Assembly: GCA_026400595.1 (NCBI GenBank) | Contig: JAPLOT010000081.1 | Coordinates: forward strand, 1-34,850 | Length of the DNA stretch: 34,850 nt | Direction of reading: 5' to 3' | Source of the DNA: Alphaproteobacteria bacterium | Lineage (GTDB): Bacteria; Pseudomonadota; Alphaproteobacteria; Rhizobiales; Aestuariivirgaceae | Program-made: the position numbers and the translations under genes | Shown here: positions 11,763-17,826 of the stretch, in pieces | Layout: each line of letters begins with the position of its first letter | How positions within the stretch are numbered: the first letter of the stretch is position 1 | The notes under the pieces: model-generated | What the model saw: only the letters and a program-made list of their open reading frames with translations | Told to the model about the DNA's origin: nothing | Database searches by the model: none

Positions 11763-12118
11763 GTGTCGGAAACCTCCACGCGGAGGATCTGCCCCTGGGC
11801 GTTGAGCGTCACATGCTCGACGCCGGCGCGCCGGAAGGCCTTGCCGCTCGATCGCGACGTCGCAGCAAGCCGCCAGACGCTGCGCACAGCGTGCGGCGCG
11901 ATCAGCTCCATCGAGTCGTCGATGGAGTGCTGGTCGGGATATTCGGCAAAGTAGGCCGACATCGACTGCAGGATGGCTTCGCGTCCGGTGAGCACGCCAA
12001 TGGCGGGCGAGTGATAGGTGGCATCGGGCGCGATCAAGGGTTTCACCAGATTCACGTCGAATGCGTTCAGCGCCTCGTGGTATCGCCTGACGATGGCCAG
12101 CGCGTCGACCGCATTCAC
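11759..12118 (-). CDS. NTF2-like / SnoaL-like domain protein
   Basis: 119 aa; DALAIVRRYHEALNAFDVNLVKPLIAPDATYHSPAIGVLTGREAILQSMSAYFAEYPDQHSIDD; GTG start overlapping upstream TGA. Confidence 0.75.
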   Translation of the reverse strand: MNAVDALAIVRRYHEALNAFDVNLVKPLIAPDATYHSPAIGVLTGREAILQSMSAYFAEYPDQHSIDDSMELIAPHAVRSVWRLAATSRSSGKAFRRAGVEHVTLNAQGQILRVEVSDT

Positions 12119-13512
12119 GATGCCAGGCCGCCGATGATGCGGATCCAGCTGCGGATGCCCCGCTGGAAGCTTGCAAGATTGTATTTCTCGTTGGGACTGT
12201 GGATCGCGTCGTCGTTCAGGCCGAAGCCGACAAGCACGCTGTCCATGCCGAGGATGTCCTTGAAGGAACGGCAGATCGGAATCGAACCACCCGATCCCAT
12301 CAGCACAGCATCGCGCTTGAACTCAGCCTTGAGCGCCGCCGCCGATTTCGAGATCCAGGGATTGTTCTCCGGGATCTCGGTGGCCGGACTGCCGCCGCCG
12401 CGCCCGGAGAACGTGACCTTGCAGTCCTTCGGGATACGCGCCTTCACAAACGCCTGGAAGGCCTTCAACACCTTCTCCGGGTCCTGCTTGCCGACCAGCC
12501 GGAAGGTGAACTTGGCATGGGCCTGCGACGGCAGGACCGTCTTGGTGCCGGCGCCGGTATAGCCGCCCCAGACGCCGTTCACCTCTGCCGTGGGCCGCGC
12601 CCAGATCTGCTCAAGCACGCTCTTGCCCTTCTCGCCCGCCGGAACCGTGAGGCCGACCTCCTTCAGAAACTTCGCGTCCGAGAACTTCAGGGCCTTCCAC
12701 TGCTTCTTCGTGGCGGCAGGCAGCGGCGACACGCCATCATAGAAGCCGGGAATGGTGATCTTGCCCGTCTTGTCATGCAGGGCTGCGATCACCTTGCTCA
12801 GGACGCGGATGGGATTCATCGCGGGTCCGCCATACATGCCGGAATGCAGATCGATGCGCGGCCCGGTGATGGTGACCTCCTCATGCACTAGCCCGCGCAG
12901 GCGCGTGGTGATGGCTGGCGTCTTCGCATCCCACATGTTGGTATCGCAGACGAAGGCCACGGCGCAGGACAGTTCCTTCCTGTTGGCCTTCAGGAAGGGC
13001 ACGAGCGACGGCGAACCCGATTCTTCCTCGCCTTCGATGAGGAAGGTCGCCTTGATCGGCAGCGAGCCGGTCGCCGTGATCCATGCGCGCGCCGCCTCGA
13101 CAAAGGTCATGAACTGTCCCTTGTCGTCAGCAGTGCCGCGGCCATAGAGGCGTTCGATGCCATCCGCATCCTTGCGGCGCTGCGGCGCGAAGGGCGGGGT
13201 CTTCCACAGCTCCAGCGGATCCGCAGGCTGTACATCATAGTGCCCATAGAACAGGACATGCGGCGTCTTCGCATTCGCATCCTTGGGCGTGTAATGCTCC
13301 ACGACCATCGGGCGCCCAGGTGTCGGCCTGGCCTTCGCATCGAAACCCATGGACGAAAGGTCGGCGACGATGGCCGCTGCCGCCCTGTCGCAGTCGGCGG
13401 CGTGGGCCGGATCGGTCGAGATCGAGGGAATCCGGCAGAGCGTGAAAAGCCTTTCGAGGCTCTGGTCGAAGTCCTTCTCTGCGGCGGAGAGAATGGGGGC
13501 AAGGTCGGTCAT
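12115..13512 (-). CDS. M20 family dipeptidase
   Basis: VLFYGHYDVQPADPLELWKTPPFAPQ, YGRGTADDKGQFMTFVEA, LIEGEEESGSPSL; start at MTDLAPILSAAEKDFDQ. Confidence 0.93.
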   Translation of the reverse strand: MTDLAPILSAAEKDFDQSLERLFTLCRIPSISTDPAHAADCDRAAAAIVADLSSMGFDAKARPTPGRPMVVEHYTPKDANAKTPHVLFYGHYDVQPADPLELWKTPPFAPQRRKDADGIERLYGRGTADDKGQFMTFVEAARAWITATGSLPIKATFLIEGEEESGSPSLVPFLKANRKELSCAVAFVCDTNMWDAKTPAITTRLRGLVHEEVTITGPRIDLHSGMYGGPAMNPIRVLSKVIAALHDKTGKITIPGFYDGVSPLPAATKKQWKALKFSDAKFLKEVGLTVPAGEKGKSVLEQIWARPTAEVNGVWGGYTGAGTKTVLPSQAHAKFTFRLVGKQDPEKVLKAFQAFVKARIPKDCKVTFSGRGGGSPATEIPENNPWISKSAAALKAEFKRDAVLMGSGGSIPICRSFKDILGMDSVLVGFGLNDDAIHSPNEKYNLASFQRGIRSWIRIIGGLAS

Positions 13513-13522
13513 GGATCGTTCC

Positions 13523-14950
13523 TCACGCAAATTCGGAGATGATGCGGGCCCAGCTGCGGATGCCCTTGTGATAGCATTCGACGTCGTATTTCTCGTTGGG
13601 ACTGTGAACGCTATCGGCATCGCGCGCGAAGCCCACCAGCAGGCTGTCGATTCCCAAGTGAGTCTTGAAGGACTCGACCACGGGGATCGATGCGCCGCAG
13701 CCGATCAGCGCGGCGGGCCTCCCCCATTCGTCCTCCAGGGCCTTCCGCGCGGCAATGACCCACGGCGTGTCAGCCGCAATCGAGATGCCGGTGCTGTCGC
13801 CGTGACCGCCAGAGAACCTCGCCTTGCAATCCTTCGGCAGGCGGGCCTTCACGAAGTCCCGGAACGCCTTGTGGATCTTGCGTGGGTTCTGACCTTCCAC
13901 GAGGCGGAAGGTGAGTTTGGCGGTGGCTTCCGCCGGCAAGACGGTCTTGGAGCCAGCGCCGCGATAGCCGCCGAAGATGCCGTTGAACTCGGCGGTCGGG
14001 CGGGCCCACATCTGTTCGAGCGGCGTGAACGCCGTCTCGCCAGCAGGCTGCGACAGGCCGACATCGCCGAGATACTTCTTTGCCGAAAATCGCAGCTTCG
14101 ACCATTCCCGCCGGCGCTCGGCCGAGGGGGGCTTTACACCGTCGTAGAAGCCGGGAATGGTCACACGGCCCCGAGAGTCGTGCATATCGGCCAGGATGCG
14201 GCTTAGTACCTTGATCGGATTGACGGCCGGGCCGCCATAGTATCCGGAGTGGAGGTCGATCTTCGGCCCGGTGACGATCACCTCGTCATCGATGCAGCCG
14301 CGCAGCCGCGTGATGATGGCCGGGGTTTCGTCCATCCAGAGTTCGGTATCGCAGATGAAGGCGGCATCCGCCTTGAACTCGCGCGCATTGAGGGCCAGGA
14401 AGCGGTCAATGTGGGTGGAATCCCCCTCCTCGTCGCCCTCGAGCATGATCGTCAGCCGGAAGGGCAAGGAGCCCACCTGCGAGAGCCATGCCCGGCTGGC
14501 TTCGAGAAAGGTCATCAACTGGCCCTTGTCGTCGCTGGCCCCCCTGGCAAAGATGCGATCCTTGCCATCCTTTCCCCTGCGGATCTGCGGGGAGAAGGGC
14601 GGGCTGTCCCACAGCTGCAGCGGATCGGCGGGCTGTACGTCATAATGACCATAGAAGAGGATATGGGGTGGCCGCGGCGAGGCGGCCGGCGGGTCAAGTT
14701 TTCCGATCACGACCGGCTGGCCGGTGGTCTCCCGGATCGAGGCCTCGAAACCCATGGCGGCGAGGGTTCCTTCCAGCCAGCGGGCGGCATCACGGCACGA
14801 CCCGTGGTATTGCGGATCGGTACCGACGGAGGGAAAGCGGAGAAATTCGAACAGGCGGTCAAGGCTGAAAGTAAATTGTTGATCAATTTGCGCGAGAACA
14901 GGTTCAAGATGGGACAAGACAACACCATGGGGCCGGAAAACCGGAATCAT
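13523..14950 (-). CDS. M20 family dipeptidase (paralogue of the adjacent gene)
   Basis: ILFYGHYDVQPADPLQLWDSPPFSPQ, FARGASDDKGQLMTFLEASRAW, MLEGDEEGDSTHIDRF; collinear with 12115-13512. Start MIPVFRPHG, or ORF start at 14971. Confidence 0.92.
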   Translation of the reverse strand: MIPVFRPHGVVLSHLEPVLAQIDQQFTFSLDRLFEFLRFPSVGTDPQYHGSCRDAARWLEGTLAAMGFEASIRETTGQPVVIGKLDPPAASPRPPHILFYGHYDVQPADPLQLWDSPPFSPQIRRGKDGKDRIFARGASDDKGQLMTFLEASRAWLSQVGSLPFRLTIMLEGDEEGDSTHIDRFLALNAREFKADAAFICDTELWMDETPAIITRLRGCIDDEVIVTGPKIDLHSGYYGGPAVNPIKVLSRILADMHDSRGRVTIPGFYDGVKPPSAERRREWSKLRFSAKKYLGDVGLSQPAGETAFTPLEQMWARPTAEFNGIFGGYRGAGSKTVLPAEATAKLTFRLVEGQNPRKIHKAFRDFVKARLPKDCKARFSGGHGDSTGISIAADTPWVIAARKALEDEWGRPAALIGCGASIPVVESFKTHLGIDSLLVGFARDADSVHSPNEKYDVECYHKGIRSWARIISEFA

Positions 14951-14994
14951 AGGCACTGTCTCACGGCGCATGCCCGTGGAGCAAGGGTCAGGTC

Positions 14995-16551
14995 ATGAGC
15001 ACGGCCGCGCCGCAGTTCCAGCTGGCCCGCGACAGCCTGCAGGCACGCGAGCCCGCGGCCGGCATCGGCCGGATCCGCCGCCGGGGCTACCAGCGCTTCG
15101 TGCATCTCATGTCCTTCGTGGACCTGGCTTTCGTCTGGCGCCGGCGCTGGTTCTTCATCACCATGATCCTGGGCTTCGCGCTGATGTCGGCGCCAACCCC
15201 CGCGGGCCTGACCCACGAAGGTCAGATCGTTCTGGTCATGTCGCTCATGGCGACCATGCTCTTCATCACCGAGGCCATCCCGCTGCCAACCGTGCCACTG
15301 CTGATCATCGTCGGCGAGGTGGTGCTACTCGGCATGGATTCCACCGAAGTGGCCCGCAGCCTGATGACCGATTCCGTGCTCTTCATCATGGGGTCGCTGA
15401 TGCTCGCCGTGGCCATCGTCAAGCAGCGGCTCGACAAGCGCATTGCCTGGTGGATCGTGCGGGTGACCGGGACCAACGTCTACTGGATCAGCTTCGGCAT
15501 CGTCACGGTCTGCGGCGTTCTCGCGGCCTTCATCGGCGAGCACACGGTCGCCGCCATGATGTTGCCCGTGGGCGTCACGCTGATCTCGCTCACGTCGAAC
15601 GACCCGAAGAAGGTCCACAATCTGGCGGCCGTCATCCTGTTCTCGATTTCCTATGGCTGCTCCATTGCGGGTGTGGCGACACCGTCCGGCGGAGCCCGGA
15701 ACGCCATCATCATCAGTTACTGGAAGGACTTCTTCTACAATCCGCTGGATCCGGAAACGCGCCGCTTCCTGATGGACTACGTCACCTGGACCATCTACGC
15801 CTTCCCGATGTTCCTGCTCCGCCTGCCCATCGTGGCGGCACTGCTGATCTACACGTTCAAGCCGGAAGTCACGGACATGTCCCGGGCCATCAGCCGCCTG
15901 CGGGCGCAGGTCTCGATGCAGGGTCCCATGCGCGGCAATGAATGGATGACCATCCTGATCTTCGCCATCACCATCCTGGGCTGGGTCACGATGTCGAATA
16001 CGCTCGGGCTGGGCATCATCGCGGTCGCCGGCGCAGCAGCCTTCCTGGTCTTCGGCCTGGTGCGCTGGGAGGACATCAACTCCGGCGTCAACTGGGGGGT
16101 GGTCCTGCTCTATGCCGCGGCGATCTCGCTCGGTGTCGAGATGAAGGCGACGGGTGCTGCCGAATGGGTGGCGGCCAGCGTCTTCGACGTGATGAAGAGC
16201 CTGTCGATCGGATCGGGCATCGGCTTCAACGCAGCCATTTCGCTGCTGACCATCGGCGTCTCGAATACCATGACGGCCGGTGCCGCCGTGGCCGTGCTTG
16301 CTCCGGTGGTGCTGAAGACCGCCGTGGCTGCCGGCGAGGATCCGATCAGCGCCGGCTTCGTGACCGCCATCTCATCTGCCTTCGGCTACCTCACGCCGGC
16401 GGCGCAGCCGGCCTTCACCATCATCTTCGCCTCGGGTTATCTGAAGGGTCCCGACTTCTTCAAGATCGGCATCCGCATGATGCTGATCTCCTTTGCGGTG
16501 CTCCTGCTCCTGGCCACGGTGTACTGGCCATTCCTGCAGCACATGTCATAG
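14995..16551 (+). CDS. DASS/SLC13 family anion:sodium symporter
   Basis: 518 aa polytopic; ITEAIPLPTVPLLIIVGEVVLLG, FIGEHTVAAMMLPVGV, GVATPSGGARNAIIISYW, GVSNTMTAGAAVAVLAPVVL. Confidence 0.92.
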   Translation: MSTAAPQFQLARDSLQAREPAAGIGRIRRRGYQRFVHLMSFVDLAFVWRRRWFFITMILGFALMSAPTPAGLTHEGQIVLVMSLMATMLFITEAIPLPTVPLLIIVGEVVLLGMDSTEVARSLMTDSVLFIMGSLMLAVAIVKQRLDKRIAWWIVRVTGTNVYWISFGIVTVCGVLAAFIGEHTVAAMMLPVGVTLISLTSNDPKKVHNLAAVILFSISYGCSIAGVATPSGGARNAIIISYWKDFFYNPLDPETRRFLMDYVTWTIYAFPMFLLRLPIVAALLIYTFKPEVTDMSRAISRLRAQVSMQGPMRGNEWMTILIFAITILGWVTMSNTLGLGIIAVAGAAAFLVFGLVRWEDINSGVNWGVVLLYAAAISLGVEMKATGAAEWVAASVFDVMKSLSIGSGIGFNAAISLLTIGVSNTMTAGAAVAVLAPVVLKTAVAAGEDPISAGFVTAISSAFGYLTPAAQPAFTIIFASGYLKGPDFFKIGIRMMLISFAVLLLLATVYWPFLQHMS

Positions 16552-16560
16552 GCTGGGCGC

Positions 16561-17826
16561 ATGGCGTTCTTCAGCCGCACAACCCTCTCGGACCGCCAGG
16601 AAGCAGCGGTAAACAAGACCCTGCAGAACCTGCGGACCCAGCGCCGCAACCGGTTCCGGGCGCTTGCCTGCATCGACGGGACCGACGAATCCTTCGTGAC
16701 AGTGCGCTTCGGTGCGCGATACTGCGTGCAGAGCAACTGCGATCTGATCATCCTCTTTGTCAGACCCATCGACCAGGGGCTGCATTCCGGCGGCCTGCAG
16801 GTGCGGCTTGCCCGCCAGAACATGCTGGACGCGGGCTTCGAACTGCCCGGAGTCCGCCACCTCCGCCGCGCGATCGAGATTCTCAAGGAAGAGGGAATTG
16901 ACGTGTCTGCCTGGCCGCAGGAGGCCGAACATCAGGATGCCTGGGGGGACGCCGCCGGCGACAACAAGATCGAGTACCTCAGCCCCGAAGGCCGTTCGGT
17001 TGTGGTCAAGCTGAAGACGGCGCCGGACTCGCGCTCGATGCAGGCCGTGCGCCGGTCCGCAGTGCTCGCCACAGTGACAGGTGAGCCGATCACCCTGTTT
17101 TCGGTGGCGACGACCGAGTCGGGCCGGAGCGCCGCCGAGGAGGCCGTGGCCAATGCAAAAGCTCTTCTCAGGGCCATGAAGATCAACGTGGCCGAGACGC
17201 GCGTGGCCGTGGGCACGCCAGCGGAAGAGATCATCGAGTCGGGATCGCTCTACAAGGTCATCGTCGTGACAGACGAAGGCCGCAGCAGATTGCAGCGCCT
17301 GTTCCGCGGGTCGATCGCAACCGATGACCCGGCCTTCCGGCACGACGTCAATGAAATGGGGGAGGCCCCGGTTCTCGAACATGGCGCGTTGCGCCTCACC
17401 CAGTCCGGCGTGATCCTGGACTATCTGGCCGAACGGACCGGCCGGTACGGCGCGGAGAACGCCAGCGAACGGCGCGAGATCTGGCGCTGGATCCTCTTCG
17501 ACAATCACAAGTTCACGGCGAGCCTCGCGACCCTGCGCTTCCTCGTCAACTTCGCCAAGACGGGCGAGACTCCGGTAACGGAATTCCTGCGGGCCCGCGC
17601 CATCAACGCCATCAAGATCGTCGACGGGCATCTTGCCGAACATACCTTCATCATTGGCAAGCGACTGACGATCGCCGACGTCTCGCTGAGCGGATATGTG
17701 TTCTATGGTGACGAGCTGACCATCCCGCTCGCCAGCTATTCCAATCTGCAGAAGTGGATGGATCGCATCCGGGCGCTTCCCGGCTGGAAGCATCCCTATG
17801 ATCTGATGCCGCGCGCGCCGATGTGA
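16561..17826 (+). CDS. Chimeric protein: N-terminal universal stress protein-like region fused to a glutathione S-transferase lacking most of its N-terminal thioredoxin-like half
   Basis: Usp-like: RALACIDGTDESFVTVRFGARYCVQSNCDLIILFVRPI...AEEIIESGSLYKVIVVTDEGRSRLQRLFRGSIA; GST-like: EMGEAPVLEHGALRLTQSGVILDYLAERTGRYGAENASERREIWRWILFDNHKF...FIIGKRLTIADVSLSGYVFYG. Confidence 0.8.
   Translation: MAFFSRTTLSDRQEAAVNKTLQNLRTQRRNRFRALACIDGTDESFVTVRFGARYCVQSNCDLIILFVRPIDQGLHSGGLQVRLARQNMLDAGFELPGVRHLRRAIEILKEEGIDVSAWPQEAEHQDAWGDAAGDNKIEYLSPEGRSVVVKLKTAPDSRSMQAVRRSAVLATVTGEPITLFSVATTESGRSAAEEAVANAKALLRAMKINVAETRVAVGTPAEEIIESGSLYKVIVVTDEGRSRLQRLFRGSIATDDPAFRHDVNEMGEAPVLEHGALRLTQSGVILDYLAERTGRYGAENASERREIWRWILFDNHKFTASLATLRFLVNFAKTGETPVTEFLRARAINAIKIVDGHLAEHTFIIGKRLTIADVSLSGYVFYGDELTIPLASYSNLQKWMDRIRALPGWKHPYDLMPRAPM

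Follow-up and report, generated by a model that had tools for sequence, protein, structure and literature searches.

The 421-residue open reading frame at 16561-17826, which begins as a universal stress protein (Usp) and ends as a glutathione S-transferase (GST), is probably an assembly artefact of two ordinary neighboring genes, usp and gst, and not a new protein; most likely, the true genome carries both genes complete. The window, that is, the whole 34,850-nt stretch of DNA analyzed, is contig C406 in full, one of 580 that make up a 3.67-Mb draft genome related to Aestuariivirga (G000), which we compared with 36 other congeneric genomes, including A. litoralis (G018) and the nearest relative (G030).

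The frame, on the forward strand, is open from ATG to stop and starts 9 nt past the stop of a DASS symporter frame, as a sequence-only reading of this DNA had stated. Its first part matches Usp in Pfam (PF00582, 1.5e-7; 32.5 bits, which exceeds the gathering score of 24), and its last part matches GST_C (PF00043, 1e-7), the C-terminal helical domain of GST being present, together with no more than the tail of GST_N (profile positions 48-76 of 76). The open frame and these matches confirm that a chimera running from Usp into GST sequence is there. The change had been placed near 17300-17350, and the junction, at about residue 255/256, does lie within that stretch; the catalytic first beta-alpha-beta unit of GST had been called missing, which is borne out by the partial GST_N match and by the loss of the active-site segment (..MGESGNAYK.. 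in relatives). What the earlier picture overlooked is a second loss: the Usp part is not intact, with 68 residues gone. The features of the locus are as follows:

14995-16551, forward strand: DASS (Na_sulph_symp) transporter gene, intact, the upstream partner of the usp-gst pair (PF00939, E=3.6e-48; ~77% identical to and collinear with A. litoralis).

16561-17028, forward strand: first part of usp, residues 1-156, comprising the first Usp-like domain without its C-terminal strands (71-82% identity in the alignment to congeneric Usp).

17028-17029, no strand: join 1, where 204 nt (68 codons) found in all congeneric usp genes compared are gone from this ORF.

17029-17325, forward strand: usp island of 297 nt, comprising the second Usp domain, which lacks both its first and its last strand (from the alignment and the model of intact Usp).

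17325-17326, no strand: join 2, placed within a codon or two, where the end of usp, its stop, the intergenic gap, and the first ~43 gst codons are gone (195 nt in A. litoralis, 318 nt in G030).

17326-17826, forward strand: remainder of gst, from ~codon 44 to the stop, without the catalytic beta-alpha-beta unit (GST_C and the partial GST_N match; 72-76% identity to the three nearest GSTs compared).

Aligned with five congeners whose usp and gst read in one frame (six rows in all), exactly two large gaps appear in the ORF, with 74-79% identity elsewhere. Gap 1 lies inside usp, directly after KLKTAPD (residue 156), and has the same size in both relatives measured, whereas gap 2 differs in length between the relatives and takes, along with the intergenic stretch and the start of gst, the last 13 codons of usp; the sequence between the two gaps is normal Usp. 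The earlier explanation, a deletion between adjacent usp and gst genes, stands insofar as the second join spans the usp/gst boundary exactly, but a single in-frame deletion is not supported, since there are two losses.

Residues 1-156 and 157-254 are mostly 71-85% identical to the complete congeneric Usp, a tandem universal stress protein with solved relatives such as TTHA0350 (3ab7/3ab8), which when intact matches PF00582 in two stretches at 1.1e-23; the island is about 74-81% identical to the Usp of the nearer congeners. The ORF differs from this family by the absence of 68 middle and 13 end residues, which leaves neither Usp domain complete: on a model of the intact protein, gap 1 straddles the domain boundary, so that domain 1 lacks its end and domain 2 its first strand, and gap 2 costs domain 2 its last strand as well. 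Residues ~257-421 align with bacterial GSTs (nearest solved chain, 3m8n) from a point shortly ahead of the cis-Pro region through to the end, whereas the first ~43 residues, there in relatives, are gone, and with them a complete thioredoxin-like N-terminal domain bearing the catalytic residue. Outgroup identities of the surviving parts differ little from those of the nearest intact relative, falling a few points below them in the first stretch of Usp and in some comparisons of GST; judged by sequence, the surviving parts do not appear clearly decayed, which would fit either an artefact or a very recent event.

Inside the island, the Usp sequence ESGSLYK at 17236-17260 resembles GST ESGNAYK by chance, and tblastn extends GST matches into Usp sequence there. 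Matches of residues 226-255 to GST were therefore set aside as chance likeness, the island itself matching Usp, and two alignments of the ORF with misplaced parts were left out of the results.

Relatives do carry two separate genes here, a point the sequence-only reading had raised: congeners have usp (335 aa) and gst (~210 aa) as complete genes adjacent to each other, and in A. litoralis the DASS gene is followed directly by usp (335 aa) and then by gst (210 aa). Near-complete matches to the 335-aa Usp occur at 29 congeneric loci and near-complete GST matches at 21, mostly just downstream of usp. Nearly all congeners keep usp, and neither the fusion nor either loss is present in any of the 36 other genomes, so that a Usp-GST fusion does not form a gene family of more than one genome. 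The remainder of the window is largely collinear with A. litoralis or G030. On its reverse strand, two overlapping tandem ORFs (12115-13620 and 13523-14971) look by eye like M20-type peptidases, and the same pair is found in A. litoralis.

Some congeners depart from the usual arrangement. G014 and G015 have no close Usp match and only a weak GST match among the matches listed, and the pair may have been lost in part of the genus. In G029, a frame change and foreign sequence disrupt gst: near 1-500 of contig C18 (reverse strand), it shifts frame after the N-terminal part and runs into unrelated sequence near the contig end, and contig C25 of the same genome shows a similar end, possibly reflecting an insertion element in gst.

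Neither missing piece was found elsewhere in G000: a relative's Usp matches only the two surviving stretches, and a relative's GST matches the surviving part plus distant paralogues. We also searched 414 kb of G000 contigs against 1.58 Mb of A. litoralis for similar lesions; across 85.5 kb of compared genes, on which the lesion rate rests, large internal losses appeared in 2 of the 99 best gene matches, namely the usp-gst ORF and ccmF on contig C23. In the latter (C23, 2052-3626), ~280 nt and ~124 nt are gone around a ~260-nt island, with joins at about 3250 and 3523, and the frame changes 3-1-3, giving two breaks. This is the sole ccmF in G000, and congeneric ccmF genes are full length save for some truncated at contig ends and one in G009 with a frame break. 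Cytochrome c maturation requires CcmF, so the double frame break points to the assembly. The sampled G000 contigs contain no N runs; gaps would therefore leave no mark. A terminase-like gene on contig C419 (3857-4126, reverse strand) shares 90% identity with A. litoralis across residues 8-97, after which it breaks off abruptly and gives way to sequence that is unrelated; this may be either a real truncation or another bad join.

We infer that the loss took place in the assembly and not in the cell from the two missing pieces, the complete and separate congeneric genes, the absence of copies in the assembly, and the like lesion in ccmF. In this scenario, the draft assembly would have put three pieces in order (up to 17028, the island, and 17326 onward), losing ~200 nt at each gap, and both joins would have kept frame by chance to yield an open chimera. 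Closing up of gaps is a known type of artefact in fragmented metagenome-assembled genomes, and the locus resembles it in having two missing stretches around a short island, a pattern that is independent of frame and unique to one assembly; it differs in that both joins are in frame, which makes it look like a gene fusion. Our literature search found nothing bearing on the Usp-GST case. Against an artefact stand the in-frame joins, with a chance of about 1 in 9, and the fact that ccmF is the only parallel case; the ORF had, however, been picked out by a reader selecting for an open frame.

Alternatively, the cell's genome may truly carry two deletions, one within usp and the other spanning the usp/gst boundary; what remains would be a broken fused ORF, probably without function and on its way to being lost. 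The sequence is continuous and keeps its frame, the window is otherwise largely collinear with relatives, and a real loss of gst could be tolerated because GST, which can be lost or broken in the genus, is dispensable there, as its breakage in G029 indicates. No long direct repeat spans either join, and comparison of the flanks with two relatives reveals no obvious shared sequence there, with a few bases of microhomology still possible. This leaves no repeat long enough to mislead an assembler, but it also speaks against deletion through repeats. The idea that the missing stretches are conservation peaks that tangled the assembler also fails, as the missing Usp part is only a little more conserved than average at the nucleotide level. 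Real deletions would nevertheless require two independent events within 300 nt, both in frame, in a usp gene that nearly all congeners retain, with remnants lacking clear decay and with the same double-gap pattern recurring in ccmF. Because there are two losses, because the pieces are absent from the assembly, and because a like two-gap signature breaks ccmF, we regard assembly gaps as likelier, and real deletions as possible but less likely.

The more exciting proposal, a retained functional protein coupling the nucleotide-sensing Usp part to the GST C-terminal helical domain, draws on the open frame and on the conserved residues retained in each surviving stretch. It finds no support among the 36 congeners, none of which shares the fusion, and a working sensor/GST fusion is very unlikely, given that neither of the Usp domains nor the GST domain is complete. 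AlphaFold models the chimera poorly (mean pLDDT 45.7, pTM 0.31, against 66.4 and 0.65 for intact Usp), although this is weak evidence given its shallower alignment of only six rows. A lineage-specific protein, made of a shortened Usp unit and the GST C-terminal domain and having a function such as glutathione or ligand binding under control of the Usp part, is likewise highly improbable.

Taken as gaps closed up in two intact neighboring genes, the locus carries a caution: draft metagenome assemblies can yield open, plausible-looking domain fusions in this way, and such fusions can be exposed by asking whether comparison with congeners reveals a further loss in the gene and whether conserved genes elsewhere in the assembly carry a like lesion.
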